NCBI GenBank assembly: GCA_002118135.1
Contig: BDIU01000089.1
Coordinates: 248,001-312,000 of the forward strand
Origin: Trebouxia sp. TZW2008
Taxonomy: Eukaryota; Chlorophyta; Trebouxiophyceae; Trebouxiales; Trebouxiaceae
Length of the DNA stretch: 64,000 bases
Reading direction: 5' to 3'
Part shown: positions 3,001 to 64,000 of the stretch, in pieces
Layout of the letters: each line of letters starts with the position of its first letter
Position numbering within the stretch: the first letter of the stretch is position 1
Position numbers and translations under genes: made by a program
The notes under the pieces: model-generated
Databases searched by the model: none
Seen by the model: only the letters and a program-made list of their open reading frames with translations
What the model was told of the DNA's origin: nothing

Positions 3001-3427
3001 CAAGTACGTCAATGATGCTGATGATAATGTTGACACAAGGGTCTCTTGTATACTGTGCTGCAGGTCAGACAGACAGCTGTGTCCTATGATGGGTCCACCA
3101 TCCTGGCATGCTGTGAGGACAGCACCATTTGTCATTGGGATTGAGCCAGCTCGCCTGACTCCTCACCAGCAAGCACGTCAATGATGATGATGCTGATGAT
3201 AATTGTGATGATTGTGCCTCAAGGGTCTGTTGTGTGCTGTGCTGCAGGTCCGACAGACGGCTGTCTCCTATGATGGGTCCACCATCCTGGCATGCTGTGA
3301 GGACGGCACCATGTGGCGCTGGGACTCAGCCACTTCGCATGACGCCTCAGATGATGAAGCTCAAGCTGATGAACAGGTTGACGCCGGCGCAAACATGGGC
3401 ATGGAGTATGCTGAGGATGATGACTGA
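85..3427 (+). CDS. EED: PRC2 WD40 subunit EED/FIE/ESC, 5' partial
   Basis: Polycomb repressive complex 2 WD40 propeller subunit; in this family it binds H3K27me3 and stimulates the histone methyltransferase in the nucleus. Exons with matching phases: 85-177, 468-543, 804-907, 1534-1674, 2020-2217, 3248-3427 (about 263 residues visible). Diagnostic blades are DHSLRLWNLES, LLSCGMDHTIKIWNL, YVDCVRWLGDLVISKS, ACGNTAGQVYVWDM and RQTAVSYDGSTILACCEDG, all hallmarks of FIE/EED and in family order. PDFST joins directly to VHWAYVDC as in animal EED, so no exon is missing there. The C-terminus is a short acidic tail ending in a stop at 3425-3427. The N-terminal exons lie before the window. Oddities: the donor after 2217 reads ATATGC instead of GT, and exons 5 and 6 are followed or preceded by decayed tandem copies. 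Identity is firm; whether the locus is fully functional is not. Confidence 0.93.
970..1078 (+). repeat. dispersed repeat, copy 1 (EED intron)
   Basis: Shares CACCCCTCATAGGTCAA-like start, CTGGTTGCTGCT, and a hairpin core ACGCC-TGAT-GGCGT with the copy at 14575-14680. The order and spacing of these blocks is the same in both, so they are copies of one element of about 105 bp, both in introns. Confidence 0.65.
2256..2406 (+). repeat. decayed tandem copy of EED exon 5
   Basis: Direct copy of positions about 2061-2223 (offset about 195 bp), covering the second half of EED exon 5 and its donor. The tryptophan codon of the VYVWDM motif is TGA here, so the copy cannot be read through. Unlike the intact copy, it keeps a good donor, CACG followed by GTACGT, at 2400. 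It lies in the intron between exons 5 and 6. Confidence 0.85.
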
Positions 3428-3699
3428 CTGCTCAGTCATGTCAATGGGTCCACCATTTTGGCACGCTGTGAGGATGGCACCAGCTGATGCTGGGATCCTC
3501 TGGATGGAGAAAGAGAGATGTGGTAGCCATAGATGCCTGGAGTGAGGGGGCCAGCATCTACCACACTGCCACAGAAGAGTACCTTGTACCTGAGCATTCA
3601 GTCAGCTTACGCAACACCTTGGACACTGAAGCTCAAGATGATATGGGGGATGCTCATGGCGCTTTTCCTGCTCGGGGGTCTTCTGAAGATGATGACTGA
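2717..3699 (+). repeat. tandem array of EED terminal-exon copies
   Basis: The acceptor plus 5' part of the EED last exon is repeated in direct orientation, anchored on GCTGCAGGTC at 2717, 2888, 3057 and 3241 (offsets 171, 169 and 184). A fifth, more degraded copy begins near 3440 and carries its own acidic GATGATGACTGA end at about 3690. Only the fourth copy (exon 3248-3427) has an uninterrupted frame with all expected residues. The others carry small deletions or in-frame stops: copy 1 loses the CEDGT region and copy 3 ends in TGA after a lost tryptophan. The segment between copies is a degenerate (GAT)n-rich stretch. Confidence 0.85.
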
Positions 3700-8039: not shown

Positions 8040-10374
8040 ATGCTGAAGCCGTGTCTCGGGAGCTCCGCTTGCAAGGTTCGCCTGCATTTCGGCGGGCATG
8101 CTGGCAGAATCTGCGTGTCACGTGCAAAAGCTGCGTCTTTGATCGATGTGGAACCAAGACCGCTGCAGCCTTTCAAAGTAGAAGTAAGCATTGTTCGACA
8201 GGAAACTTAGCATCCGCATGCAGCAACCAAATTGCATGTGCTGGTGCAGCGCTACTTCGCTGAATACGAGTTCAGTGCCCCGTATCTGCTCTGCTGCAGC
8301 GATTGTGAGCCTCTGTCACTGGCGAGTGTCCTGAGCAACGCAGATGCAGACAGCACAGCACTGTGAGTACCCATGCTTCGCATGCGCTTGAACGAGCCCT
8401 CTCAATTCAAACAAGTCATTCAGCAGGCTGTGTGTCTTGCGTGGGCCTGCAGATGGGAGAACCTATCTCTGGGCTACACAGAGGCACCTGGCAACCCGAT
8501 ACTGCGTCAAGAGATCAGCACAACCTACGAAAACACGCCAGCAGACAATATAGTCGTCCTTGCGCCTGAAGAAGGCATCTATCTAACCCTCAAAGCGCTA
8601 CTCAAGCCTGGGGATCACGTTGTGGTCACATACCCAGGCTATCAATCGTTGTGCAAAGTTGCTCGCAGCATTGGGTGTCGTTTGACATACTGGCGGGCAA
8701 CAGTGAGATCAGACTGGAATCTACGATGGACCTTTGACCTGCAGGAGCTTACGTCCCTGATCAGACCAGACACTAAGGTCAGGCCACCCCAAACCCCTTG
8801 TGCTGTAAACCCATGCAACCTGCACTTCTCAGTGTCATGCAGTAGGTTCTCCTTATGATGATACAGGATATATTGCCATTCTCGTAAAGGCAATGCAATT
8901 GGGAACCAATCACTGCATTTTGACTATACTGGTACCTGTGACTAAAGACAAGTCAGTATGATGACCTTTTTTCAAAGGAATTTATGCAGTTGTCATAAAG
9001 AGAGAGCACTGTACAAGCATGATGGAATGCAGGCAGTGATAGTCAACTTCCCACACAACCCCACTGGCGCATCCCTCACCCTTTCAGAGTGGCAACAGCT
9101 GTGCAGCCTATGTAGCAAACAAGGCGCCTATCTGTTCAGTGATGAGATGTACAGAGGGCTGGAACACAGAGGGGCTGCAGCATTGCCTACAGCAGCAGAC
9201 TCCTATGAGCTTGGCATCAGCTTGTGTGGCATGTCAAAGGCTCTGAGTATGCCTGGTTTGCGCATTGGCTGGATTGCCACGCAAGATACACAGCTGCTGA
9301 CTAAGATCATGCAGCTCAAGGACTATACCACCATCTGCAACAGTGCTCCCAGTGAGGTGAGCATTCTGCAATAGGAATCACATGCTGGATGATTGATGAT
9401 GTGCTGAGATCATACCACTGTGCAAAGTAGTCATAGCATGCTAGAGTAGTTATGAACATGAATATACATGTGCCAGCATAAGTGCTAGGTCTGTGTGGCC
9501 CCAGTCCTTTCCGGCCATCGCTGTCACACTATGATCTTGCAGGACCTGCGCACTGCCTTGCAAAGCTGGCAACATGGTTTGCACAGCTTCATGCCAATGC
9601 AAATGGTCATTACAGCTAAGGCACTGTGTCTCAACTGTGAGTACTGTCGCGCAATTGGCTGATGGACTCAAACTGCCACTGCCAAGAGATGGTCACTTTG
9701 CTCCAGGTACTGTTTGCAAAAATGCTGTTTGATGACAGGTGCTAGCTTTGATGGGGCTGCGCAATCGCCATAAGATTCTGAAAGACAACAAACAATTGCT
9801 ACAAGACAACCTGGCCCTGCTATCAGATTTCTTCCAGCACTACGAAGGCCTCTTTGTCTGGTTTGAGCCTCCTGGCGGCAGCGTCACCTTTCCTTGGCTC
9901 ATTTCAGGTGATGTGCAATCTTGCAAATTCAGCATACATGCATTCTGGACGATGTGTGCATGCATAGAACTTCTGTCCAGGAGCCATTCTCTATCATCTC
10001 TTGGTGATGCGATGTTGCACAGAATTAGGCAGCTGCTGTATGACTTCTGCTTTATGCAAAAGCCAATTTTGCATCAGCTCAACAGGCGTGTAGGTATTGA
10101 GTCATTGTTCTCAGCAAGGCTGCTGATGTGACAAAATCCTCCTGTGCAATGTGCAGGCGAGAACGCTGACCAATTTTGCCAGGAATGCTTGCAGCAGACA
10201 GGCGTATTACTTCTGCCTGGCTCACAGTTTCTTCTGGAAAGGGATGAGGGTTTTGAAGCCTGCGTCCGATTTGGCTTTGGTCGCAGAAATATGTCTGAGT
10301 GCTTGAGCAAGATGGATTCCTTTCTGTCCACGTATTATAGTACTTTGTCCAAAAGACCATTAGCAAATAGGTAG
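8040..10374 (+). CDS. PLP-dependent aminotransferase, class I/II, probably organellar
   Basis: Exons 8040-8183, 8250-8362, 8453-8777, 9033-9356, 9739-9907, 10157-10374; all junctions in phase; 430 residues. The first ~30 residues are basic and Ser/Ala-rich (MLKPCLGSSACKVR..), like a transit peptide. Fold type I features follow in order: LGYTEAPGNPILRQEI, the LAPEEGIYL cofactor loop, TYPGYQSL, NFPHNPTG, the DEMYRGLEH Asp/Tyr pair, and SLCGMSKALSMPGLRIGW, whose lysine (about residue 263) forms the PLP aldimine. The C-terminal domain contains PPGGSVTFPW and CVRFGFGR, the substrate-carboxylate arginine region. Among subfamilies it looks closest to the capreomycidine-synthase/aspartate-aminotransferase-like group of bacteria and algae; the substrate cannot be told from sequence. 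Intron 3 contains a degraded MITE. Confidence 0.92.
8866..8955 (-). mobile_element. degraded pogo-like MITE copy, inverted
   Basis: Intron 3 of the aminotransferase contains a stretch matching the reverse complement of the better preserved element at 55595-55768. The shared core AACCAATCACTGCATT at about 8904 is followed by TGAC...CTGGTACCTGTGACTAAAGAC. Terminal repeats are no longer clear. Confidence 0.6.
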
Positions 10375-12418: not shown

Positions 12419-15400
12419 ATGAGCTGCCCCATAGCGCAGTGCCCCTCCAGCTCTGCAGCTATGCAGGCCCAGCGTTACCATGCAATTGCGCGTCGTGCTA
12501 TCAAGGGTCCAGTGCGTCAAGGTAGCTTGTGTTCTGAGGTATTTGCACGCACGCAACACAGCTTGATCTTTGGCTCAGTGCTTGATATTGCGCAGCTTCT
12601 GCGGGGAGACGAGGATTTCGATGCAAATGCCAGCAGACGCCCGAGCCACGCAGGTCAACACCTGTGTCCAGGCAGGGCGCCACGCCTCAAAGCCCTGTCA
12701 CAGGGCAAAGCCCACAGACACCTCAAAACAACCAAACAGGCTTCGCCAATGTTGAAAAGATGATTGCTTCCACCTTCAACAATGTGCAGCCGGGTCTGAG
12801 GGAGGACTGGATGGAGGTTGAGGGCAACTGGCTTCTGCGCCCATTGAGAGGCTCTGCAACTGCTGTTGTGCACTTCATTGGCGGCGCTTTTGTTGGGGCT
12901 GCTCCACAACTCACATATCGGCTGCTGTTGGAATCACTTGCAGCACGAGGGATCATGGTATGCACTACACAAAAGTCATGCAAGGCACCAGCGTGAAGCA
13001 TGCACAGCTTTTGCAGACCGATCTGAGGACGTTGCTGTCACTTGTCAGTTCTTGTTGTACCCTGCTTTGGCATTGCAAATAAAGCTGATGAAGACTCAAG
13101 CCTACGCGCTGCTGCTTTGCAGATCATAGCGACCCCCTTCTCAACAGGCTTCAACCACCTGCGCATTGCAGACGAGATCCACTATAAATGGGATCGCTGC
13201 ATGCATAATCCTTGGATAGCAGCAGAAGTCCAAAACCTGCCAGTCTTTGGCCTTGGACACAGCATGGGCTCATTGCAGCATCTGCTGATCAGCTCTAGGT
13301 ATGCTAGCACGAGCAGAGCTGGCAACATTCTGATGTCTTTCAACAACAAGCCAGCTACAGATGCCATCCCCTTCTTCTCTCCCTTCATTGCCCCTGGGGC
13401 ACGTGCCCTAGGGCCTTTTCTTGCACAGGTGAGAGACAAGCAAAATTACCAGTGTCATCAAGATCATGATTGAACCACATTCTAGTACATGTGCTAGGCA
13501 CAAGCCTTGTCTCAGCAAGGGGCCTTGCTCATGGCGTCATTTGCAGCACGTGTGATTTTCAACTTTTGAAACTGCCCCTGTGCTGTCACGCATACAAGGA
13601 ACTTACAAAAGCTGTTGCTATTGCAGCTAGCATGTTTGCCACTGTCTTGACATGCACCTTGGGAGATTCGTAGCGCTACCTTGCTAGGCCAGAATACAAG
13701 GCTGAAGACTTGTTTGCCCAGCAATGCGCATCCTCAGCAGCAATGCTTCTGAAAATCACACTGCAACCCAGTTGACATGTCCGATAGACTGCAGCACGTC
13801 CCTGCTCAAGTGTCCATGGTCCTCCAAGATTGTTAATGAGATTGTGGTTGCTGTCGCATTGCATCAAAATCGTTCATCAGGGTTGGACGCACTGTGTGCA
13901 GATGTCCTCAAATCCTTTCACCTCACAGCTCCTGAACGCATCAGAGCTGATGCGAGGTCTCAGCCCTGGCATGGTACGCCAAGTATTGCCACTGCTAGAT
14001 CAGCTCACACCCATCTACACAGACCTTGCGCAAGGCCGCCTTGAGTTTGTCCCTGAGCCTGAGGAAACAAAACGCCTCATCAAATCCTTCTACGGTAAAC
14101 TCAGGCGTCAGCATGCAGTCTTGACTGTTGTCTCACGATGCATTGTTGACTGTTGGCTCACAATGCAGTCTTGACTGTTGTCTAACAATGCGCTCTTGAC
14201 TGTTGGCTCATTGTGTACACTGCAGTCAGTTTGACACAAACACCTGGAGATGCTGTTGATTGAGTATGCAGGGGTGCCCAGCACTTTGCTCATACAGTTC
14301 AAGGATGACAACATAGACCAGACCCCACAGCTGGCCAGCACGCTTGAGTCAGCCAGCATCACAAATGCAACCAGCAGCAGTAGAGGTCAGGTGGCTGTTA
14401 GGTACGCAACCTGTTCTCCCATCCGCTCTTGCTGATCTTTCAATGAACTCTTTGTTGTACATCTGCTGTCAGGCTGTGCGACCTGTTTTCCTTAGCGCTC
14501 TTGCTTATCTCCTCAAAAGCATCTTGATCGAAACACCACTACTTCCTTTTATTTGCTGTCAGGGTGGTACAGCTGACCCCTCATAGGTCAACTTTCTACT
14601 GGTTGCTGCTCTTTGAGCAGCACTCTTGGGCTCCTCCATTAACAGACGCTCCCGTTATGACGCGTAACGGCATAGGCGTTTCTTTTTCTGTTCAGGGTTT
14701 TGTCTGGGGACCATGTAAGGCCCTTGAGGCAAGCCTTTGGTGATTTGCCTCCAGAGCTGGCCTCAGTTGCCAATCAAGCAGTCAACCAAGGCTCATACTT
14801 CCTGCAAGGCTTGTCCAACATGGCCACACAAGCAGGCTTCCGTGAGGTATGTTAGTCTCTCAACAACAAGACACTTGTGTAAACAACAAGACACTTGTGT
14901 AAGGCCATTCTTGTCTGAAGGACAATGCAATCAGGAACGGAGCACTGCATTCTGACCTTGATGGTACCTCTGAGCCAAGAAAAGTTGGTTGTTGAGGGCA
15001 ATCATTGTGACACTCAGTGCAGCTGCCAAAAGGATAATCATTCATGGCCTCCATCTTGCATCAGCCCTGTTGCTGGGGTTGTCTCTTGTTGCGCGTGCCT
15101 TCAGCATGATCTGCATCTGGTCCGCGCTGATTGCATACAGATGCATGCATGACAACTCTATTATGTATCATAATGCTTTGGCTGTGAGAGCTGATGATGC
15201 AGGATTTGGCTTGCTTGCAAAGCTAATAATGGGACAAAGTGCACTGACACGCCAGCAGATAGGCAAATGTCTGGTCCAATTTGTCCCCAAGCGCTGTGGA
15301 GCTCATTGTGATGTTTTGAGCAATTGGCAGTGAAGCTGATCATAGCTGAGTGCACTGCAGGCCAGCCAGCCCCTTGACGAGTTTGCAAAAGGTCTCACTG

Positions 15401-50838: not shown

Positions 50839-53800
50839 ATGCAGGAGCTATATAGGCCGGATAAGCAGCGGTACAGCGCCCTACTAGTCGAAGCGTGGCT
50901 GAACGAAGTGCTACACGTCACTCCGCCTGCTCTTGTGAATAGCAATCAGGGGCCCTTTAAGGTGAGGCCCTTTAGGACTTTGTCCTAAAAAGATCAAACG
51001 GGCATAGCCAGGGCTTTCAAATTTGAACAATGATGTGTGACATACCCTGCTGTATTACATAATTTGCTCCGCCATTCTGTGTCTCCTTTGTCACCAAGGC
51101 TACCATGCTTCGACAGCAAGAGAGGTACAGCTGTATAAGCTGCCATTGCACTACACGCAAATTCTGCACATGTGCAGTCATGATGTATCTTTGTGCATCA
51201 TCATATTTTCTTCTGCGATACTGTGTCTTGTGATGTGACATAGGGTCTTGCAAGTTTTGGCCTGGACAAGAAAACCCTGCAGTCAGCAGGCTTCACATCA
51301 GACGCTGTTGGGTATCTGTACCAAGCTCTGTATGTCTACACCATCGGCTTTCAAGACAAAGTTAAGAAGCTGATTGCACCCATCGAGAACAAGCAAGTGC
51401 CGTTGAATAGTATATGGCGGGCTTATCTGGCAATTGCAGAGACTGCAATGAAAGTTGGCTTCAAGGTACAGAGGCAGCAGCACAAATGCCTTAGCACTAC
51501 ATTATTTGCCAGTAGCTTGAACAGTATGCCTGTCAGCGTCACAAGACAGCAATTTATCCAGACAGCATCTGTATGCACTGCCATCTATTCTGTATTTGAC
51601 GCTGTCCTTATTTGAAATTTTAGGCTGTCATTGTTACACAAGCCACATTGCAGCATGGGAAGCTATGCTTTCAAATGTTGTGTACTGTCAGCAAGCGACC
51701 TTTCTGCGCATGAGTCAGGCGTTGAGCTGCCTCTCACAACAGCTGAGAGGCCAAGGTTCAAAAGCTGGAAGATGCTTGAGGTTGCCTGGACCACTGGCTC
51801 GGAGTTACCACCTTAGGATGGCTGCCAGTGAAGTGTGTTATGATCACAATTCACCAGGCAGGCATCCAGATCAGAGCCGCTTCTGTGATGCACACAGCAA
51901 CTTTGTTCTTGCATGATTGACAGCATCCATACTTAGCTTGCAAAAGCATGAAAGCATAGGTCAAACCATGTTTCTCCTCGTCCAATAGAGCACATCGTGA
52001 CTTGGTTGTTGAGTGTAAGAGTTGCAGCAGCAATCACCAGATGCTAATATGTTGTCACATAACAGCACTTGAACAATAAAGTAACCTCATGTTCCTGCAG
52101 TCATTGTTCCTGGAAAGCCTGTCAGGGCAGCAGGCCCAAGCAGCTGAGGTGGCACTTGCTCAGGCAGCTGCAAGGGAAGCTGTGGGGGAGCGAGGGGAGC
52201 TGGAACACATGCTGACATGGTTAACAGGAGCACATGCTGAGGAAGCTGCTATGCACAGAACCTTCAAAGCTGAGGTAGGGAGTGAAATCTGCAAAGAAAC
52301 CAAGTTCGTCTTTCTCAAAGCAGAGAAGTCAAAACAAAAGGAAAGAAAAGTTTGTGCTGTGAGGCATCATGACTGGAGTTTGCAGGAGCAGAGGCGGCTC
52401 AGAATCAAAACCAGCTTGATGCAGCAGGACAGGTGTCGCAACACATTTGATCAAATGGCAGTGGTATGGCTTCAACATAGCTCATACACACGGCAGCCAT
52501 GCAGCATATGAAGCTTGAGGCCATTTGGGTTCACAACTGGCTCTGCTGATTGTCATGGCCTTGTCAACACCAACTGCAGCAATTCATCAGCAGCCATGGT
52601 AGGGCTGCAGACAGTGCGCATATCTGCAGCTTGTATGGAGGAGGCTCATGTGAGTACATAGTAGCAATGCAGGATATGCAGAGTACTCATGCAGCTCATT
52701 GAAAGAAACAGTCAGATTCAGATATGCAAGCCAAGGTTCCGCAAGAGCTGAAGCAGCTCTCCAAGCTCATCAGAAAGACCTGCAGCGCTGGCTCATCTGG
52801 ACCTGGCAACTGACCATTGCTGGGTGTCCTCAATCGCAGCCTTCAGCAGTTGCAGATTGTATATGCTACATACACACAGCATGTATGGAGATGCTGCAGC
52901 CCTCAGCAGACGCAGATTGACATGTAAAGCCATACTTACCCTGCATCTGCCAGCATTCGCATATAGTTTTGCAAATATGCAGGTTGACAAGACTCATGCA
53001 ATTGGTCTGTCCAAGATCAGAGGCAGAAGACGCCAACAGCCCTTGTCAGCCATGGATGCATTTGTGACAAGCTTTGTGCACCAAGTGTGCAGCATGGACA
53101 CGTTTATGCGGCATGGTTGAGCTGTTGCGTATCGACAAAGTTGAGCCTGGAACATTCAGCAGTCAGCCATGTCAGTCATTGCAGCCAGAAGCATCAGCTT
53201 TGCAGATGATCCGGTAAATCTGCCAGTCAAGATGCGCATCCATCTGCGCAAAGGGTTGTGCCTCTTGTTTGAGCCAATCACAGGTGCTTTCATGAGGCTG
53301 TGCCCTGCCAATCAGGCACATCAATCCAACAAGGGTTGGCTAGAGACCGCTGGTCTGCTGCAGTTGTGAAGCGCACAAACAGTGCAAATGTAGCTTGACC
53401 CTTGGACTGCCTTGCACACGTGCGTAAAGCAACTCAGATTTGTCAGGGCAAGTTGCATGCGCTCTCGAGTGAAGTGATGTGTGTGATGCAAACAGGCTAC
53501 AGGGTTGAAGGACCATCTTAACAGGGCAAAAGCAGCCAACATGGAGCTAGTGGAGCAGTGCACCACAGCTGAGCAGAGCGTCAAGGGCATGGAAGATGAA
53601 GTACGGCTGGTCAAGCGGCAGCTGGCCGTAATGACCAAAGCAAGAGATGTTGCACGGCAGGAGAAAGAGGATTGGAAAGCCACCTGCAACAGGTGTGAAT
53701 TGGTGGTGTTGCTGTGCTTGATGTGAGCGCTGTCTTGCAGTTGGGATGCTGCAAGTGGGAGCAAGGCTGCATTCGAACATGCACCATCTGGAATACAAGA

Positions 53801-54942
53801 GCTTCCGTGTCTTGTGACTTGAGAAGTGTACTACACTGTGTGCAGTCAGGAGAAGATAGCAGGATGCATGCCTCTCTGTTCTGTGAGCCTGTGGGTTTAT
53901 GTGCACATTTCACAGCGAATGCCGCTGCAAATAGGACCAGGGCTGCAGCTATGCATCTGCAGATTTTGCAGAACGACGCCCCTTTTTGGCTGTGGGATGA
54001 CAAAGTAAGCCTCGACTGTGTGTGCAGCAAAGAGAAGATGCTGCTGCAAGTAGACGTATGTGCAGGGGCTCCGCCTAGGCATGTGAGAGCTTGCATAACA
54101 TGGCTTCTTGGTTTTGTTGGTGGGCAAAAGGTTGTTGGGAAAACTCAACTGTTGTGTGTGCAGAGAAGGGATGCTGTGAGTGGGCGTATACCTTTTCTCG
54201 ATACGGAATAGCAAAGTGCTGACTGTGCAGGTCAAAAAAGAGGAACCTTTCTGCAGGGCTGCAGCCGGTTATACATCACCTTTCATCTTAATGCTGTTCC
54301 GTGATGTTGTTGAAGATCAGGGGACATGATGATGTGGTCTGCGTGCAATCAGGAGAAGATGCTGCTGCAAGTAGGCGAGGGGCTGCAGCTAGGCATGGGA
54401 AATTGTGCATATCAGCCTGGCATATGAGTGTTGCACAACACTGCTGCTGCTGTCTTGTATTTGACTGACTCAGGCTTGACTGTGTGCGCAGTCAGGAGAA
54501 GATGATGCTGCGGGTGGGTGCGGGGCTGTTGGCCATCCAGGCCACCACCCGCATGCGGGCCCCTGACCCTGAGGCTGCACCCATCAGCCCTGCCCTACCC
54601 CATGCATCCCTGGGCTCAGAGTCTGCTGCCAGGGATCTGCTTTCAAAGCTGGACAGCATGCAAGCTCAGGTGCCCTTCTGCTTGCATAAAGCACTTCTCA
54701 CACTACTGTCGAGCAGACGTGACAAGTTGGTGTTGGTCTTGATGCAAGCTGTGTGACAATGTCCCTTTGAGCAAAAGACAAATTTGTTCATCGCAGACAG
54801 CAGCTCATACTTGTAGTAGCCTGATGCTTAAAGCCATATATTTCATGAGTAACAGGCGCAGAACTCTGTGTTAATGTAGACAGACTCTATGATTCATGTC
54901 GTCGCTCTTTGTAGCCTAAAGCTGCCCAACATTGGGTCACGC

Positions 54943-54975
<33 letters not shown>

Positions 54976-57900
54976 GCCCAGCGACTGTTTTCGCTCTCTC
55001 AAGCCAGAATGTGCAGCTGCTATGCAAATTGCCAAAGACACAAAGGGCCATCTGAGCATTGCTGTTTAGCATGCTACCAATGCAATCATACGTCTGAGTG
55101 TCTGCTCAGCATCAAAGAGGTCCATCAATGTTTTGCCGGCCAACATGGTCCGCAAAACATTGATGGACAATTTTGTCAATCATTAGTTTGAATGTGCATT
55201 CTGCAGGCAATAGCACTGCATGAGGAGTGGGTGAGCGAGAAAGCTCAGCGCATTCAACTCACTGAGCGCCTGTTGAAGCAGGAGGCTCAGCTGCAGGACC
55301 AGGTCATGCTCAACAACGCAAATGCCAACAGGATTAGGTAATCTATCAAACCTGCCTCTTTGCATTGTGGCATTAAACCAGGTGCAACCAAGAACACCGA
55401 AAGCATCGCGGCTTGTGCCCAAGGTTGGTAGCTGACATTGGGCTGCTGCACAACTAGCTTTGTTCACCCTGGGCAGCTGTCATTTGGCTTTTTATCCTTT
55501 TAATGATCATGCCTGCCATCTTGACAAGACTTCAAAACTGATTCCTGCTTCATCTTGCCAACTGTGTGCATGTGCATTGTCTGTCACTGTACTATAGTGA
55601 ACTCTCTTGGTAACGACCGCTTTGGTCACCAAGAACTTTGTCCTTACATTGAATTGTCCTTACTCAGAGGGACCACTGCAGTCAGAATGCAGTGATTGGT
55701 TACCAATGGCGTTGTCCTTACATCGAGATTGTCCTTACACCGAGTGTCCTTACAAAGAGAGTTTACTGTATGAGGGCAGCAGCTCAAGAGGAGGAGGAGA
55801 TATTTGCATGCTTCAGCCAGACAGATGTTCTGATGGTGTTCTGGGCAGCATTACAGTGCTTGCACATGCTCAGCTGCAACAGAGGCGATGTGTCTTGCAC
55901 AAGATCCAAACAGTCACCACATCCTGGTTGTCTGCACAAACAAAGTGCGTCAGGACACACTTTACAAAGTGCCAAGCTTGCTCATCTATTGCTTTGTTGC
56001 GGTGTGATGGAACAGCTGCTGTACACTCCCCTGGCAGATGTCAAGACACGCAGCGCTGCTGACATTGAACAGATCAAGAACCAGTTCTTGTCGAAGGCAA
56101 GTCATTGACCGCCTATAGATCAGAACTGGCCTGAGACATTTCACATAATCCTGCTGCGCTCAGAGTATTCCCAAGTGGTGCTGCAGTATCCTGACTGCTG
56201 ACAAGGAGCGCCTGCATACCCAGTTGGCAGATGTCAAGACACTTGGTGTTGCTGGCGTCAGCGCATTCAGCAATGCTAACAACAACAGACTCAATAAACC
56301 TGCCTCATTCAAGGCACTCACAATGTCTCCTGTGTTGCTGCAGCATTCTGACTGCTGACAAGGAGCGCCTGCATGCCCAGCTGGGAGACGTAGAGACTCT
56401 CAGGATTGAGCCCCTCTACAAGTCCATAGACAGCCTCACAGCTGACGTGGCAGCCAAGAGCGAGGGTCTTGCAACTCTGCAAGCCAGCATTACAGCTTTG
56501 CAGGCTGACATCGCACAGCTAGAGACTAAGCTGGAGGCAAAACGTGGCAAGAAAAGGGCGTACAAGACTGCCTTTGTGGGCAAGGTATGCAGTCTGAAGC
56601 AATTTCCTTGCATTGATAGCATGTATCACATCATGGCTGCAAACACAAAATGAGGCAAATAAAGGGCCTACAAGACCGCTTTTGTGAGTAACGTATGCAG
56701 TCTGAAAGCAAGCCCATCAGTCTTGCAACCTTGGAAGGTAGCGCACAGGTTTGCATGCTTGCGTGAGACATTGACCATGTGCAATATTGTGCAATGACTC
56801 TGATTAACTGCATATGTCTCACAAATGCAATGACTCTGATTAGACATCCTGTGTCGGCAATCTGTGTCACTTCTGCTTGAACATGCAGCATCTGTTTGCA
56901 TTGCAGCAATCAGTGACAACGGGTCTGTGACACCAAAGGGTTTGCCAAGCAGTGTTCCATGCTGTTTGCCTCGCTGATCTCAATGACAAAGAGTGCTTTG
57001 CGCTGCAAGAAAAGCTGCCTGTTGCACTCGTCAGGCTCGTTTTGGTATTTTACCATCATGAAAACAGTGCTGAGACATGAGTCTTGCCCTTCGCAGTAGC
57101 TGCAGTATGTTATTTGCGCCACAGGTTGAGATTGAAAAGAAGCTGCGGCGGCAGCTGCTCGAGATTGACGAGCACAGCAGTCACCAAGCAAGGCAGTTGG
57201 AGCGGCTGCAAGAGCACACCCATGCTATGCATGCTTTGGCTCCAGGTGACCTCCTGGCCTGTCCATCTTCACTATTGCATGCCGGTTTGCACTTGTGGTC
57301 ATGCATGCTATGCATGTTGCGGCCCCAGGTGACTTACCAACATATACGTCACAACTGCTGTCTGCATGCTTGGAGGGACGCGTCAACCAATCATTGCGGT
57401 TCTCTGGTTGTGGATCTGCTGTTAGGGTTTGCCTTTTGCCACAAGATGCTTGCCTTCTGTGGCCTATTACGCGTCATTTGCATGTAAAGACCAAAGCACC
57501 AGGCAAAACTGTCAAGTTGAACGGCTTGCTCTTCAAACTGAATCAGAATGTATGCTCAAAGCGACCACTTGCATTTGTCATGATGATGTTGGTATCACCC
57601 TGAGGCCACTCCTGCATTCTGCGTAACACCTCTCACTGAGATTGACTTGTGCAGGAATGCTGGTGTTGAAGCAGAACTTGGATCAAAATCAGAATTTGAG
57701 GAAGATGCTGAAGCGCAAGCTGGTCGAGACCCGGGCTGAAGTTGTGACAGCTGAAAGGGAATTTCAGAAGGCGACATCGCTTGCTGCAGGCTACTTTCAT
57801 GACCTGGAGCTGCTCAGATATCAGGTATTGGTAGAAGTATGAGGTTGTTGTTACTGCTGCTATCAAGAACATTGAGCATATCAACGCCAATGCTGATAGT

Positions 57901-60900
57901 AGTGATAATGTTCAGCGTGGTTTCAGCATCCCAGCGCACAGTTCAGGTCCTCTCTCACTTGACTGGCTTTTCTGGACCAAGCAGGAAAAATCACCTAACT
58001 CTGTATGATGCTCAGACAGCAGAGGTGCAGCAACTGTTTGTGCTGGATTGACAAATGAAGCTTTTGACCAACCAGCAATGTAAACCCAGCTTTTTTTGGT
58101 TTTGTTGATGCAGACCAAGTAGGCGATTGCTCTCAAGCAGAGGAAAGAGCAGATCTGCAGGAGACCCTGAACAATCAGAAACAAGATGCCATTCTGAGGG
58201 TTACAAGCTATCAGCAAAGTTTTATTTGGTTGCTTTGCAGACCAAGGAGGCCATTGCCTTGAAGCAGAAGAACGAGCAGGTTCAAGCAGATTTGCAGGAG
58301 GCCTTGAACCTCAAGAAGCAGGAGATCCATCTGCTGCTTGATGATAAGGCCGCAGCTTTGGAGCAAGTGGTGCAGCTGAAGCAGCAGCTCAAGGATGGCC
58401 AGGTGAGAACCGTTGTGCTGTGCTGAAAGCGTAAGGACTTTCATCAATGCAGGACTGCTTGCAAGTCCACGGCCGCACCCGTGCAGTATGGGCATAGCAT
58501 GCACAGCACAGCGTAGCACAGCACAGCACAGCACAGGATAGCATGGCACAGGCCACGTGTAAAAGTACCTGACGTGAGCCAACGTATAGTCATCAAGGTT
58601 TTGTGTCAGTGAAGCAGACTTTCAGGAGGGACTGGATCTGCTGCTCGCCGCTTGCCTCATATGCACGCTGTTGCTGGCATGCCTGGCAGTGGCAGGGAGT
58701 ATCTGAGGGTATCGTCGAGCTGCATTCTTTGTACGCGTTGCCCAGGGGAGCACTTGCTTGGCTGCATGCTGTGCATGCTTTGCTTTGTATGATGTATTGC
58801 ATTTATCTGCATGCTGTGTGCCTTTTGCCAGTGATTGTTTGTTGTCCAGTTGGCATGCTGCAAGTAGTGCATGCCATGCTGGTAGACACACTTTCTGTGG
58901 ATACCACATTTTATGCTGGCAAATATTCTGACATGTGTCTCAGGGGTCCGCAAGCAAGCTGGCTGCAGAGAAAGCAGAAGAGCAGCGGCGACATGCAGAT
59001 GAGAAAGCACAGCTGGAGGCGCAGATCCAGGCGCTTGACAGCCTCAGATTTGAGCTGGAGCAAGCCAAGGCCAACCTGACAGCCAAGCTGGAGAGGAGCC
59101 TAGCTAGCATCACTGCACTGGAGATACAAGTCCTGGAGGTCCGATGCTGTACATGATCAAGATTCATGGCCATTCAATCATATCTTGAGCTTATGATGCA
59201 TGTTCATCATTCATGTTGCATGAGCTGGAGCAAGCCAAGGCTGACTTGACAGCTAAGCTGGAAAGGGGCTTGGCCAGCATCACAGCACTAGGGACACAAG
59301 TCCCGGAGGTCCGATGCTGTGCATGATCGATATTTGCGACCATTTGTTCACAATTACAACCTACAATGCATGATCGCCATTCATGCTGCATGAGCCGGAG
59401 CAAGCCAAGGCCAGCCTGACAGTACTGGAGAGGAGCCTAGCCAGCATCACTGCACTTGGGATGCACGTCCTGGATGTCAGATGCGGTGCATTATTGACTT
59501 GTACTCTTGTTGCACCTTTGTTCTGTGTCATAGAGCCAAGGCCAACCTGACAGTCAGGCTGGAGAGGAGCCTAGCCAGCATCACTGCACTTGGGATGCAA
59601 GTCCTGGATGTCAGATGCGGTGCATTATTGACTTGTACTCTTGTTGCACTTTTGTTCTGTGTCATAGAGCCAAGGCCATCCTGATGCCCAAGCTGGAAAC
59701 GAGCCTAGCCAGCATCACTGCATTAGAACTCCAAGGCCTGGAGGTCAGATGCTGTGCATGATCGCCATTCATGACTGTTCACTCATAAGTATTGTGCATG
59801 ACCATTCATGGTCATCGTCTCAATTACCATCTGCAATCGCCATTCACGGTCATTTCTACGGCAGCAGTCATGATGCATAATTGCAATTGCTTGTTACAGT
59901 CATGCTGTGCAGCAGAAGTTCAGCAGCAGTTCTCACAGCCTGCATTGGGCTGTGTCAACCCCCGATTTCACCCCCTCGTCAAGTCAAGACAAGGCAAGTC
60001 AAGTTGAAATCCTCACCATCAAGTCATGATCATGGAAACAACCTGCAGGAGAAGTCCAAGGCAGAGCAGGCAGGGGTGATGATGACCAGCAGCAGTGACA
60101 CTTGTACTCGCCAGCTCAGCCAGCTGCACTAACGTGGTCTGACTCTGTTGCAATCATCTGTTCATCAGCTATTGGTGAGTGATCATCGCTTCGATGGTTT
60201 ACAGACGCTGTATTGTTCCCTGCAGGAGAAGTCGAAGGCAGAGCAGGCAGAAGTAATGATGAACAACAGCAGTGACAGCTGCACTCGCCAGCTCAGCCAG
60301 CTGCACAAGGAGCTGCGGGGAAGCCGTGAGGAGGGGCAATTGCTGCAGGGGCAGCTGCAGACGGCCCTGGGGCACTTGCAGCGCAAGAGGGAGAAGAAAA
60401 GGCACTACAAGACAGCTTTGCTGACAGAGACTGAGCAGCTGCAGGCGGCACTTGTGCACAAAGATGTGCGCATTGGCGAGCTCAACCACCGCACTGATAA
60501 GGTCAGCAATCACACAAGATCAATGGATCATGCACTGCTTTGCATTGAAGAGATCTGTACAATCACTCTGATAAGCTAAGAGATACAACAATCTCCACAT
60601 GTTACGCATTGCTTTGCAGTGTCAACCTTTCACGTCCCACTGACTGCATGTCAAGTTGCACAAGGATGTGCGCATTGGCGAGCTCAACCACTGTACTGAC
60701 AAGGTAAGCCATAAGACGATGACTCTCATTATCCACTGATGTGCAGTGGCAAAGTCTCGGTATGCAAGTGACAGCGTTGGTCCATTACTGACTGTGTGTC
60801 AATACCAGCTCCTGAGCTTGAGTCCTTACGACATTCTCAGAAGGTTTGCATCACATCAGGAATGTGTACAGCTTGAATCAAGCTCTGCATGAAGACGTCA

Positions 60901-63751
60901 CAGATGGATTGCGCGCAATTGGTCTGTGTCTGGGGAAACAAGGCACAACATGCAATGCAGCACATGAGCGTGCTGCCAACTGAATATTGTCTCACTCATG
61001 CGTGTCCTTGCAGCTGAAGCAGGCAATCCTCAGACTACGTTCAGTGCATGACCCCAAGTCAATGCTAGGTGGGTCTGTGGAGGGGTCAAAGGGGGCAGGA
61101 CCATTGAGGCTGCGACAAACACTAGAACAGCAGCAGAACTTGCCCTCTCTGCCAAGTGCAATACTCTCTTACACAAATGCTTTTTCCTTGCAGCTGAAGC
61201 AGGCCATCCTCAGTCTGCGTACAGTGCATGACCCCAAGTCAGGGGCAGGGGGGTCAGCAGACTGGTCAACGGCAGTAGGCCCCTTAGAGGCTGTGACCAC
61301 CACCAGTGCAGCAGCAGAAACACAAATGCTGGTGGACAAGCTGAAGGACGAAGAGGAGGCACTGCAGCAGAAGGTGGCTGTGCTAGACGCTCAGCTACAG
61401 TATGAGCAGGTCAGTCATTTGGGCACTGACAACAATTCCAACAGCAAAGATCACACCATCATTCGAATGTGCATGTGAGACTGTCATGTTTTGTATCACA
61501 AACACATTGGCGTGCTTGCAGTAACGACTGTGAACGATGCTATGTAGTGGGGTGGTGGGGCACATGAATTCAGTGCATCCTGCTTGTCAGATACAGCGCT
61601 GCACCTTTCCACCTAGATATGAAACTGGGCTCTGTGCAGGAGACGGGTGTGTACAGCCAGAAGCAGTGACACGAAAGGCTTGATTTAGCAAGGTTCACTG
61701 CAGCGCCTGGTCAGGGGAATCACAGAGCGCATGACTCTAGCCTCTAGCATGCAACAGATGGGTATTACTGCTGTGCTGTTCGTGCAGGAGACAGGCATTG
61801 AGCCACAAGCAGAGGCCTCAAAGGCACTGGCCAGGGAGCAAGACACACCTCAGCTGATGGATAATCACAGAGCGTATGACTCTAACCTCCAGCAGACTAC
61901 GACAGAGGGTGCATAAATGACCCGACTTGCGCAGGAGACAGACATAGGGACAGAAGCAGAGGCGTCAATGGCATTGAATAGGGAGCGAGGCACACTGCAG
62001 CGTCAGCTCAGAGGGGTCACAGAACGCATGACTCTAGCCTCCAGCAGATTACAAGTGAAGGAGTCTGCTGATGAATTGACCACCGTCACATGGTCTGTGA
62101 TTGTGTGCAGGAGACAGGCGCAGAGACAGAAGCAGAGGCATCAAAGACATCGGCCAGGGAGCATGGCACACTTCAATGTTAGCTCAGAGGAGTCACAGCG
62201 CACGTGACTCTAGCCTCAGCAGATTACAAGTAGAGGACGCAACCCCAAACCACCCCTGCAAACAATGTCTGTGCTGATTGTGCAGGAGACAGGTGTACAG
62301 CCAGAAGCAGATGCGTAAAAGGCATTAGCTAGAGAGCGAGACACACTGCAGCGGCATCTAGGGGGGGTCACAGAGCGCATGACTCTAGCCTCCAGCAGAC
62401 TACAAGTGGTAGACGCAGCTTTCTGTGGTGTAAATCCTTGTGACATATGTCTCTTCTTGCAGGAGACAGGTGTAGAGCCAGAAGCAGAGGCATCAAAGGC
62501 ACTAGCCAGAGAGCGAGGTACGCTGCAACGTCAGCTTAGAGGAGTCACAGAGCGCATGACCCTAGCCTCCAGCAGACTACAAGTGGAAGACGCAGCTTCG
62601 AGCCTGACTGCTCTGGAGCAGCTGTACCAGAAGGAGCAGGCTCAGGCAGTACAGTCACTGCATGAGTCAAAGCAGCGGCTGGCGCGGCAGCTGGAGGTCA
62701 TTCAGGCTGACAGGGACAAGTACAAGGCGGACAGCGAGGAAGAGCACAGGGAATTGCTGCAAGCTGCAGAGGCTCAGCAGCACCTGCAGGAACAGATCAG
62801 GTACAATCACACTCAGTGGTTCGCATGACTCATATTTGACAGCCTAGTTGCTCATGGTGTCCTGTGATTCCCCTTTGAGTCTCTGAAAGGACATTGGATG
62901 TGAATAGTGACTTGGCTTCTTACAGAAGCAGTAATTGTAAGCACATACTGAGGCAGATAGTCATGTTTGTGTGGTGGCATACACTGCAGCTGTAAAGAGT
63001 ATGGCACACAAAGCTAACAGCTTAGGCACGCGTTGCATGTATTGGCAGTGCTTAGGAAGGCTTGAGCGCAGTGCACTGCGCTGAAGACAATGCTTGCCCT
63101 GGATGCCTCTGTTCAAAATGTTGGGATGTTGTTTTGCACCATGTTCAGGGCAAGGGCTGCTAAACTTACAGTGCCAACACAGGGTTGAGAAAGCTGAATA
63201 TGTTCTGGGGTGCACACCCAGCTGGTTGCATTCACCTGCTTAGCCTGCATGCATGCACAAATATGTGTCAACCCATGGGTTGTACAAGGAAAGCTGTTGT
63301 CACTCACACTCAATCCAATGTGCTTCAGTCAGTGTGATCTAGACGATGCCCAGTTCAATGTTCAAATGCAGGAGAGCTGTTGTTGCTGGCAGTCAAGTGT
63401 TGTGCTTCATTGAAACAGATCTTGACAATGACCATTTTGATTATGGCTTGTGATGCGTCAACAACATGTCCTGTTTGATGTTGGCTAGTGATGATTCGTG
63501 CATCTTGGCTCATGATGATTACCACAACTGTGTGCATGATGTTGCATCATGCATGCAGCTTCTTGGAGGAGGAGAGACAGGCCCTGACCGAGAGCTGGAA
63601 GAAGGCTGAGTCAGCACGCAAGTTCCTGCAGAGTGAAGTGGCGGCTCTGAAGGGGCAGAGGGAGAAACTGAAGGAAGAGCTGCAGTTCATGGAGAACAAG
63701 ATGGTTGCACTGCGGGATAAGCCAAAAACGCCTCCTGACATCACCTTTTGA
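50839..63751 (+). CDS. large coiled-coil protein, possibly centrosomal/ciliary; N-terminal exons uncertain
   Basis: Exons with closing phases: 50839-50961, 51244-51465, 52101-52274, 52983-53084 (least certain), 53496-53692, 54492-54669, 55207-55337, 56344-56584, 57125-57245, 57655-57824, 58241-58402, 58944-59138, 60226-60501, 61194-61409, 62463-62800, 63559-63751; about 1,012 residues. A globular N-terminus (RPDKQRYSALLVEAWLNEVL; GLASFGLDKKTLQSAGFTS; LYQALYVYTIGFQDKVKKL; IWRAYLAIAETAMKVGFK) precedes about 850 residues of heptad-rich coiled coil, for example LQADIAQLETKLEAKRGKK, LKQKNEQVQADLQEALNL, LEAQIQALDSLRFELEQAK and FLQSEVAALKGQREKLKEEL. KR-x-KKR-x-YKTA occurs twice (exons at 56344 and 60226). 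Stop at 63749-63751. I do not recognise the family; a basal-body role is a guess prompted by the architecture and delta-tubulin. Most introns contain copies of adjacent exon ends. Confidence 0.75.
50971..50989. other. perfect 8-bp stem hairpin after a donor site
   Basis: TTTAGGAC-TTT-GTCCTAAA starts 10 bp after the GTGAGG donor of the exon ending at 50961. The donor region GGCCCTTTAAGGTGA is itself partly repeated as GGCCCTTTAGG. It could fold in the pre-mRNA beside the splice site. Confidence 0.6.
52275..53495 (+). other. intron region of the coiled-coil gene with exon candidates
   Basis: Besides 52983-53084, segments at 52381-52436 (AEAAQNQNQLDAAGQ in one frame) and 52728-52790 (ARAEAALQAHQKDLQRW) have coiled-coil composition but no phase-compatible splice pair. 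They may be missed exons or echoes. Confidence 0.35.
53837..54412 (+). repeat. decayed copies of the coiled-coil exon 54492-54669 (5' end)
   Basis: The acceptor and exon start (GTGTGCGCAG/TCAGGAGAAG ATGATGCTGC) recur at about 53837 (GTGTGCAGTCAGGAGAAGAT), 54029 (GTGTGCAGCAAAGAGAAGAT), a shorter trace near 54155, and 54342 (GTGCAATCAGGAGAAGATGC). Each is followed by a degraded GGGGCT...CAGCTAGGCATG region. Only the last copy, at 54492, leads into a full-length open exon. Confidence 0.8.
54944..54974. repeat. (CTG)n trinucleotide repeat, intronic
   Basis: About ten CTG units between the exons ending 54669 and starting 55207; continues into CTGCCGCC. Confidence 0.95.
55595..55768 (+). mobile_element. 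pogo/Tc1-like MITE, 174 bp
   Basis: Terminal inverted repeats: left TAGTGAACTCTCTTGGTAA, right end on the other strand CAGTAAACTCTCTTTGTAA. The element is bounded by TA on both sides (55593-55594 and 55769-55770), a TA target duplication. Inside are repeated GTCCTTAC motifs, typical of pogo-type termini. No transposase. It lies in an intron of the coiled-coil gene between exons ending 55337 and starting 56344. Two degraded relatives lie in other introns of the window. Confidence 0.85.
56031..56270 (+). repeat. decayed 5' copies of coiled-coil exon 56344-56584
   Basis: GCAG/TATCCTGACTGCTGACA AGGAGCGCCTGCATACCCAG at 56184 copies the exon start at 56341 (offset 157). A still earlier copy of the following part, CTGGCAGATGTCAAGACAC, is at 56031 (offset 193 from 56224). 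Both run into non-coding sequence. Confidence 0.85.
56655..56712 (+). repeat. decayed 3' copy of coiled-coil exon 56344-56584
   Basis: AAAGGGCCTACAAGACCGCT TTTGTGAGTAACGTATGCAG repeats the exon's end and donor (AAAGGGCGTACAAGACTGCC TTTGTGGGCAAGGTATGCAG) about 106 bp downstream. The donor AAG/GTATGC became AAC/GTATGC. Confidence 0.85.
57296..57336 (+). repeat. copy of the end of coiled-coil exon 57125-57245
   Basis: CATGCTATGCATG, then TTGCGGCCCCAG/GTGACTTA, repeats CATGCTATGCATGCTTTGGC TCCAG/GTGACCT of 57221-57251, offset about 80 bp. The donor is intact in the copy. Confidence 0.75.
58098..58200 (+). repeat. decayed copy of coiled-coil exon 58241-58402 (5' half)
   Basis: GCAG/ACCAAGTAGGCGATTG at 58110 copies GCAG/ACCAAGGAGGCCATTG at 58237, offset 127 bp. 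The third codon is a stop (TAG), and a segment encoding the NEQVQAD region is deleted. Confidence 0.9.
58497..58546. repeat. (GCACA)n-like microsatellite
   Basis: Imperfect AGCACAGCACAGCACAGCAC run in an intron of the coiled-coil gene. Confidence 0.9.
59219..59766 (+). repeat. four tandem copies of the 3' half of exon 58944-59138
   Basis: Anchored on GCCTAGC(C/T)AGCATCACTG: the exon at 59098, copies at 59268, 59435, 59569 and 59703. Offsets are 170, 167, 134 and 134. Each includes GAGC(T/C)GGAGCAAGCCAAGGC or a shortened CATAGAGCCAAGGCC start, the coiled-coil codons and the GGAGGTCCGATGCTGTGCAT-type donor region. Copies contain in-frame changes (P for L, deletions) and lack acceptors. Confidence 0.95.
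60045..60131 (+). repeat. decayed 5' copy of coiled-coil exon 60226-60501
   Basis: CCTGCAG/GAGAAGTCCAAGG through CGCCAGCTCAGCCAGCTGCA repeats the exon start with offset 177 bp. It ends in CACTAA where the exon reads CACAAG, so translation would stop. Confidence 0.9.
60652..60712 (+). repeat. 3' copy of coiled-coil exon 60226-60501
   Basis: GTTGCACAAGGATGTGCGCA TTGGCGAGCTCAACCACTGT then ACTGACAAG/GTAAGC repeats the exon end (60455-60507), offset about 200 bp. It retains a good donor but has no acceptor in phase. Confidence 0.85.
61005..61130 (+). repeat. copy of coiled-coil exon 61194-61409 (5' half), still open
   Basis: TCCTTGCAG/CTGAAGCAGG at 61005-61023 repeats the acceptor and start of the exon at 61194, offset 180 bp. 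It covers LKQAIL, LR, S/T, VHDPKS, GGS and AGPL codons. The frame runs without a stop from this copy through the intervening 70 bp into the real exon, so use of the upstream acceptor would insert 60 residues in frame. Confidence 0.85.
61630..62450 (+). repeat. five tandem copies of the 5' part of exon 62463-62800
   Basis: Anchored on ACAGAGCGCATGACTCTAGC: copies at 61722, 61867, 62019, 62195 and 62370, the used exon at 62547. Offsets are 145, 152, 176, 175 and 177. Each starts with a GCAG/GAGACAGG acceptor-like site and codes for an ETGxEPEAEASKALARE-like stretch. Stops or frame shifts occur in copies 1, 2, 4 and 5 (for example CGTAAA, TGTTAG); copy 3 (61931-62060) stays open for most of its length. 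Only the last copy continues into the long exon. Confidence 0.95.
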
Positions 63752-63767
63752 CCTGTCAATCAACTGG

Positions 63768-63965
63768 TCATTTGCAAGCTGAAGGGAGAGCTGCAACTGT
63801 AGGGATAGATGAGTGCTCTGCAGATCAGCCTGATACGCTCCATGACATCACCTGTTGACCTGTCAAGCTGAAGAACGAGCTGCAGTCCAAGCAGTATCAA
63901 AGGGTTGGACTGCAGGATAAGCCTCAGACGCTCCACAACATTGCCTTTGACCAGTCAAGGGCTTG
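63768..63965 (+). repeat. two decayed copies of the coiled-coil terminal exon end
   Basis: The end of the last exon (AAACTGAAGGAAGAGCTGCA G...CCTGACATCACCTTTTGACC TGTCAA) recurs at 63775-63863 (CTGAAGGGAGAGCTGCAACT ...CATGACATCACCTGTTGACC TGTCAA) and at 63864-63957 (CTGAAGAACGAGCTGCAGTC ...CACAACATTGCCTTTGACCA GTCAA). They follow the used stop codon, so they are downstream echoes. The array may continue past the window. Confidence 0.85.
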
Positions 63966-64000
63966 CATGCAGAGCAGCATGGCCTCTGTCGATGTCTGCT

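Follow-up and report, generated by a model that had tools for sequence, protein, structure and literature searches.

The introns of a coiled-coil gene in the green alga Trebouxia sp. TZW2008 contain partial, decayed copies of the ends of its own exons, which we term echoes. We confirm this observation and find that it is wider than first described: echoes occur genome-wide. The most probable explanation is that short tandem duplications are frequent throughout the genome and that the copies lying at exon edges stay visible for longer than others.

The window analyzed here is a 64,000-nt stretch (positions 248,001-312,000 of contig BDIU01000089.1) of the 68.5-Mb, 527-contig TZW2008 assembly. 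To it we added 16 ten-kb loci on contigs picked by number alone (20 contigs were requested, 4 of which were too short), giving a sample of 224 kb, and all density figures below describe these 224 kb of this one Trebouxia genome. Two genes were verified, the coiled-coil gene in the window and an acetyl-CoA carboxylase gene in locus L017. Exons outside these two are calls from a self-trained gene finder, a hidden Markov model that yielded 146 exons scoring at least 8, misses exons and labelled some echoes as exons.

Exon echoes in the coiled-coil gene and beyond

The 12 full-length exons of the coiled-coil gene (Table 1), joined with no echo among them, give one 800-aa frame with a single terminal stop. 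A protein search returned P0121, which is 100% identical to this product across the whole query. As the first-pass annotation had noted, one version is usually intact. P0121 is encoded on a 3,157-base contig whereas the gene itself covers more than 10 kb, from which we infer that the contig is a spliced transcript. The mRNA of this gene, as represented by one transcript-derived protein, skips the echoes, and the mRNAs of other genes probably omit theirs as well. P0121 is the sole same-species protein found, in a cluster of one member, and it carries ATGLK before DHLNR, so that exon 1 begins at 53496, as originally annotated, and not at 53511, the start used in our spliced-frame and echo-census work. 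The homologue from Trebouxia sp. C0004 shares 71% identity and has 812 aa, and echo-like insertions are absent from the C0004, C0006 and lichen-assembly (P0125) proteins where these align. The public C0006 protein, P0124, has a missing stretch and a different end compared with its relatives. Neither P0121 nor P0124 has any Pfam family at E 0.01.

For the echo census each exon was aligned locally against its own flanking introns (and, for the last exon, against the sequence after the stop), with the reverse complements of the same stretches and the remaining introns of the same gene as controls. Echo scores of 44-182 were obtained at 8 of the 12 exons (54492, 56344, 58241, 58944, 60226, 61194, 62463 and 63559), the control maxima being 29 for reverse complements and 32 for other introns of the gene, and exons 56344 and 60226 are echoed at both ends. 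Nine exons had been named as echo-bearing, and eight of them exceed the controls; the ninth, 57125, scored 30, within the control range, and the repeat search there was also empty. The local-alignment census detected no echo at exons 1, 3 and 6 (53496, 55207 and 57655). The duplicated units do cross exon-intron boundaries, and the copies are decayed as had been described, with stops, indels and lost splice sites all seen.

Table 1. Exons and echoes of the coiled-coil gene, in window coordinates
Position	Strand	Feature	Evidence
53496..53692	+	exon 1, no echo; gene extends further upstream	start from P0121
54019..54100	+	older copy of region preceding exon 54492	blastn pair 54019-54100/54340-54414
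54345..54385	+	echo of exon 54492 start, upstream intron	self-comparison, exon-intron alignment
54492..54669	+	exon 2, full-length	spliced frame, P0121
55207..55337	+	exon 3, no echo	spliced frame, P0121, echo census
56175..56250	+	echo of exon 56344 start including acceptor	self-comparison
56344..56584	+	exon 4, full-length	spliced frame, P0121
56646..56711	+	echo of exon 4 end including donor; stop codons, 1-base gap	self-comparison
57125..57245	+	exon 5; claimed echo unsupported	score 30, inside control range
57655..57824	+	exon 6, no echo	spliced frame, P0121, echo census
58109..58152	+	echo of exon 58241 start; stop at codon 3	self-comparison
58241..58402	+	exon 7, full-length	spliced frame, P0121
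58944..59138	+	exon 8, full-length	spliced frame, P0121
59222..59762	+	four tandem copies of exon 8 end + donor + intron; spacing ~134-170	self-comparison
60042..60129	+	echo of exon 60226 start; similarity stops at TAA	self-comparison
60226..60501	+	exon 9, full-length	spliced frame, P0121
60657..60712	+	echo of exon 9 end including donor	self-comparison
60973..61138	+	echo of exon 61194 start + intron tail	self-comparison
61194..61409	+	exon 10, full-length	spliced frame, P0121
61633..62421	+	five tandem copies of exon 62463 start; starts 61640, 61788, 61935, 62111, 62286	self-comparison
62463..62800	+	exon 11, full-length	spliced frame, P0121
63559..63751	+	exon 12 including stop codon	spliced frame, P0121
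63776..63948	+	two copies of exon 12 end, beyond stop codon: 63776-63866, 63865-63948	self-comparison, echo census

Two other sequences in this gene region may be recorded. An intron contains a perfect CTG repeat of ~10 units (54944-54974), and a GTCCTTACA-type sequence at 55650-55773 recurs in inverted orientation at 8835-8955 and 14890-14974 and is possibly a dispersed repeat.

In the acetyl-CoA carboxylase gene 6 of 11 exons are echoed, with scores of 39-135 and controls of at most 29. Its 11 full exons join into a 594-aa stop-free frame that is collinear with the solved eukaryotic acetyl-CoA carboxylase 5i6i and best matched by Trebouxia sp. C0010 (89% over 93% of the query). Echo similarity ends exactly at an in-frame stop in one echo of each verified gene (TAA at window 60042-60129, TGA at L017 5885-6007). 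XPG-family genes also show echoes. Exon-edge local pairs are found in RNA polymerase loci L023 and L025, and no local pair was found in L024, also an RNA polymerase locus. Helicase loci L020-L022, chosen because a family search gave overlapping matches, contain arrays, one core being present in seven copies in L022; PRP8 (4,884 bp in L018 and L019) gave one pair at the standard threshold. At G000:C57:178778-179254 three successive matches to the XPG_I start (1-44 to 1-48) occur, two with TGA stops. An RNA polymerase beta match at G000:C18:6539-7732 lies in a 1973-aa open frame, possibly on a bacterial or organellar contig.

Short tandem duplications in the sampled genome

When the window was compared with itself, the direct repeats were found at spacings of 61-823 bp, with one exception at 1,911, and only a single inverted pair lay within 5 kb. 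Local direct repeats are present in 15 of the 16 loci chosen by contig number. With one threshold applied across all 224 kb, 166 direct pairs were near, that is within 1 kb, against 1 non-palindromic inverted pair; the other pairs are 4 distant direct, 3 distant inverted (>1 kb) and 7 palindromes. The near direct pairs group into 86 families, or 0.38 per kb, with a minimal offset of 58-246 bp in 81 and of at least 405 bp in the other 5, and the copies of the 81 families occupy 23,484 of 224,000 bases. Block shuffling in 30-base pieces left 15 near direct pairs, which we think are pieces of arrays, and inverted pairs were therefore used as the control instead. At the sample average, the 14.2 kb counted for the coiled-coil gene would hold 5.9 families, and 11 were found (Poisson 0.04). 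The suspicion had been that some process affects nearly all exons of a single gene, but 3 of the 16 sampled 10-kb loci are at least as dense (9 families in L005, 8 in L012 and 8 in L017), and the gene stands at the high end of echo density without being unique.

The explanation we favor starts from what is observed here: the abundance of the duplications in the sampled 224 kb, their direct orientation, unit sizes and tandem geometry, one echo-free transcript, and decay close to neutral among the pairs whose intron part can still be aligned. Tandem duplications some 60-250 bp long would build up throughout the nuclear genome, presumably placed at random at birth. Where a unit spans a splice site, the copy contiguous with the remainder of the exon would go on serving as the working exon, and the other would be left in the neighbouring intron as a truncated echo, lying upstream when the unit spans an acceptor and downstream when it spans a donor. 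The echo would then decay and its exon partner would be retained by selection. Because one copy is under selection, exon-spanning duplications should be recognizable longer than intron-only ones, and as the echo decays beside a selected exon copy, similarity may shrink to the exon and its splice signal. The first-pass annotation had listed relaxed tolerance of tandem duplications in introns among its possible causes, a suggestion that comes near to this explanation. Candidate mutational causes include fill-in repair at adjacent nicks and lagging-strand flaps. Loss of the FEN1 flap endonuclease was also considered; XPG-family matches are found on four contigs, which neither support nor exclude it.

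At 40 of 44 boundaries the copies lie on the side that the acceptor/donor geometry predicts (binomial p 1.7e-8), and the four exceptions are confined to two arrays, one at window 2655-3495 and one in L003. In the window array, with a unit of ~170, copies flank the called exon on both sides, against the usual geometry. A contiguous case is seen at L017 9090-9589, where exon end, donor and intron are present in three copies with a unit of 197.

Placement and divergence of the copies

Two results on placement speak for random birth. Of 277 boundaries, 31 are crossed with 10 bp or more on each side, against 28.9 from shifted placement, an absence of enrichment in a test that misses copies ending less than 10 bp beyond the splice site. 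Moreover, among contiguous families (spacer below 10%, families with more spacer being termed gapped) of at least 84% identity, 6 of 11 overlap exons against 4.5 expected, with no clear exon bias. The other tests speak for a link to exons. Overlap with an exon of at least 20 bp is found in 54 of 81 families, where shifted placement gives 34.4 (contiguous, 26/37 against 17.7; gapped, 28/44 against 16.7), and in the overhang test, devised afterwards, 18 of 44 cases have a copy whose end lies no more than 20 bp from the exon edge on the intron side, against 5.1 expected. When divided by identity, exon-overlapping families number 11/17 at 60-76% (7.3 expected), 17/28 at 76-82% (13.7), 9/15 at 82-86% (5.9) and 17/21 at 86% or more (7.7), the last showing the strongest bias; random birth predicts the least bias among the most similar families, and this figure therefore counts against it. 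Selection preserving one copy accounts for the exon link only in part. Support for a targeting of exon edges is mixed: exon overlap and splice-site endings are above expectation, and boundary spanning is not.

Spacer makes up less than 10% in 37 of the 81 families and more in 44. Among 40 gapped two-copy pairs the spacer resembles the flanks in 8 (p<=0.1) and is unlike them in 32 (p>0.1); where it is unlike them, no intron part of the unit can be seen even though, from the divergence of the exon part, it should still be visible, and this counts against the favored explanation. Comparison of 40 intron bases outward from each shared boundary, under a fixed rule, separates 23 pairs (24 boundaries) in which the intron part is still similar, the extended class, from 19 pairs (20 boundaries) in which it is dissimilar, the sharp class, with pair identities of 69-96% despite the intron dissimilarity. 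In an earlier version of the intron comparison, 26 of the 44 boundaries exceeded the 95% level of the null. The first sharp and extended sets were hand-picked (13 and 14 boundaries), and the later fixed rule gave a weaker sharp signal (synonymous fraction 0.55 against 0.61).

Differences in the extended class (113 synonymous, 144 nonsynonymous, 4 stop) give a synonymous fraction of 0.43 and a codon position-3 share of 0.46; in a simulation where the echo is neutral and its partner constrained, these values are 0.37-0.41 and 0.41-0.44, respectively. The extended class shows near-neutral decay beside a constrained exon. The sharp class (112/86/4) has a synonymous fraction of 0.55 and a position-3 share of 0.60 and differs from the extended class both at position 3 (Fisher p 0.005) and in synonymous changes (0.011), the sharp class having been defined after the data had been seen. 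In the verified exons, nine sharp pairs give 59/33/3 (synonymous 0.62, position-3 share 0.68) and five extended pairs 32/33/0 (position-3 share 0.48). A codon count over 40 families gave 99/113/5 with one copy called coding and 42/105/0 with both. The differences in the sharp class look partly protein-constrained, beyond neutral decay. Plain neutral decay does not predict such a class and, by reasoning, neither does gene conversion templated by the working exon; past use of the echoes, or the joining of already diverged copies, would predict it. The gapped pairs with flank-unlike spacers pose the same problem.

Two findings stay outside the explanation by frequent duplication and longer visibility: the strong exon bias seen among the most similar families, and the protein-like divergence of some echoes. 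A broader proposal, which we hold to be doubtful, is that one size-limited process (~60-250 bp), active across the whole genome, continually feeds spare exon ends with their splice signals into introns and that a share of them comes under protein-level selection for a time, forming a reservoir for the replacement of exon edges of which the sharp class would be the trace.

If the duplications were old, gene conversion from the working exon might have kept the echoes alike as the intron part diverged. This would suit the frequent halt of similarity at the splice site in the overhang test, the clustering of mismatches (of 65 pairs, 16 reach p<0.05 in a longest-run test and 12 in a dispersion test) and the array at 61640-62463, which retains similar exon parts and poorly matching spacers. 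However, an echo so maintained should by reasoning be neutral, with a synonymous fraction of at most ~0.41, and the values of 0.55 in the sharp class and 0.62 in the verified exons make conversion unlikely. That some echoes were or are used as exons, either mutually exclusive or as alternative ends, with protein-level selection before decay, would account for the higher position-3 share of the 19 sharp pairs relative to the 23 extended ones and for the gap lengths (6 and 9 bases) seen in two echoes of the acetyl-CoA carboxylase gene. We consider it quite unlikely, for the sharp echoes inspected are truncated exons, several with stops or frameshifts, P0121 omits the echoes, and the other Trebouxia proteins contain no such insertions where aligned.

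Uneven recombination might instead have joined copies descended from two lineages that had already diverged, the mostly synonymous differences predating the joining. This would explain together the sharp exon-edge ends, the unalignable introns and the synonymous-biased differences. It would require very many events, however; the assembly contains just one match to a 601-bp stretch of the coiled-coil gene, so that a second haplotype is not seen there, and the contiguous family at L017 9090-9589 shows about as much similarity in its intron part as in its exon part, all of which renders joining very improbable. An assembly artefact from unmerged haplotypes or read errors, already disfavored, is scarcely credible, for although the ~250-bp upper size limit resembles a read-length limit, divergence between copies is ~4-35%, individual copies have stops and frameshifts of their own, and arrays reach seven copies that are decayed to different degrees.

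Relation to described systems

Work in rice and Arabidopsis reportedly underlies the account of short tandem duplications by nick and break repair. The nearest described process we found is of this kind: small tandem duplications are tied to break repair with nearby nicks and, as in Trebouxia, are direct, head-to-tail and without a link to repeat families (PMC8355091). Compared with such duplications, those seen here form a fixed, layered record across the sampled genome, in which the members at exon edges are recognizable as echoes. A title-level literature search found nothing describing the exon-end echo pattern itself.

Tandem exon duplication with mutually exclusive splicing likewise places exon copies in adjacent introns, with similarity that is sometimes limited to the exon. 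The Trebouxia copies differ in being partial, many of them dead, and omitted from the one available transcript. Whole-exon duplication of the mutually exclusive type was rejected on these grounds: the copies are partial, several carry stops, and P0121, one transcript, is without them. Minisatellite arrays have unit lengths in the range of the multi-copy arrays seen here, but many Trebouxia families are two-copy and the units contain coding ends.

Tandem duplication has been described as a source of introns (PMC3443670), and intron gain by tandem genomic duplication has been reported (PMC4974935); the shared feature is duplicated exonic DNA that is removed by splicing. In Trebouxia, by contrast, it is splice sites already in place that have been copied, and the copies are found within introns that were already present. 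Introners also place repeated sequence within introns of many genes (PMC9860276), whereas in the two verified genes matches are only from exon to adjoining intron, with no dispersed family. Introners were rejected as an explanation: in these two genes no exon matches a non-adjoining intron of its own gene above 32, and the 601-bp stretch has a single genome match.

About a tenth of the sampled sequence consists of recognizable local copies. For annotation this carries a warning, as the gene finder called echoes as exons. The genome would be suited to studying the origin of small tandem duplications, the growth of introns and the choice that splicing makes between working and dead exon edges.
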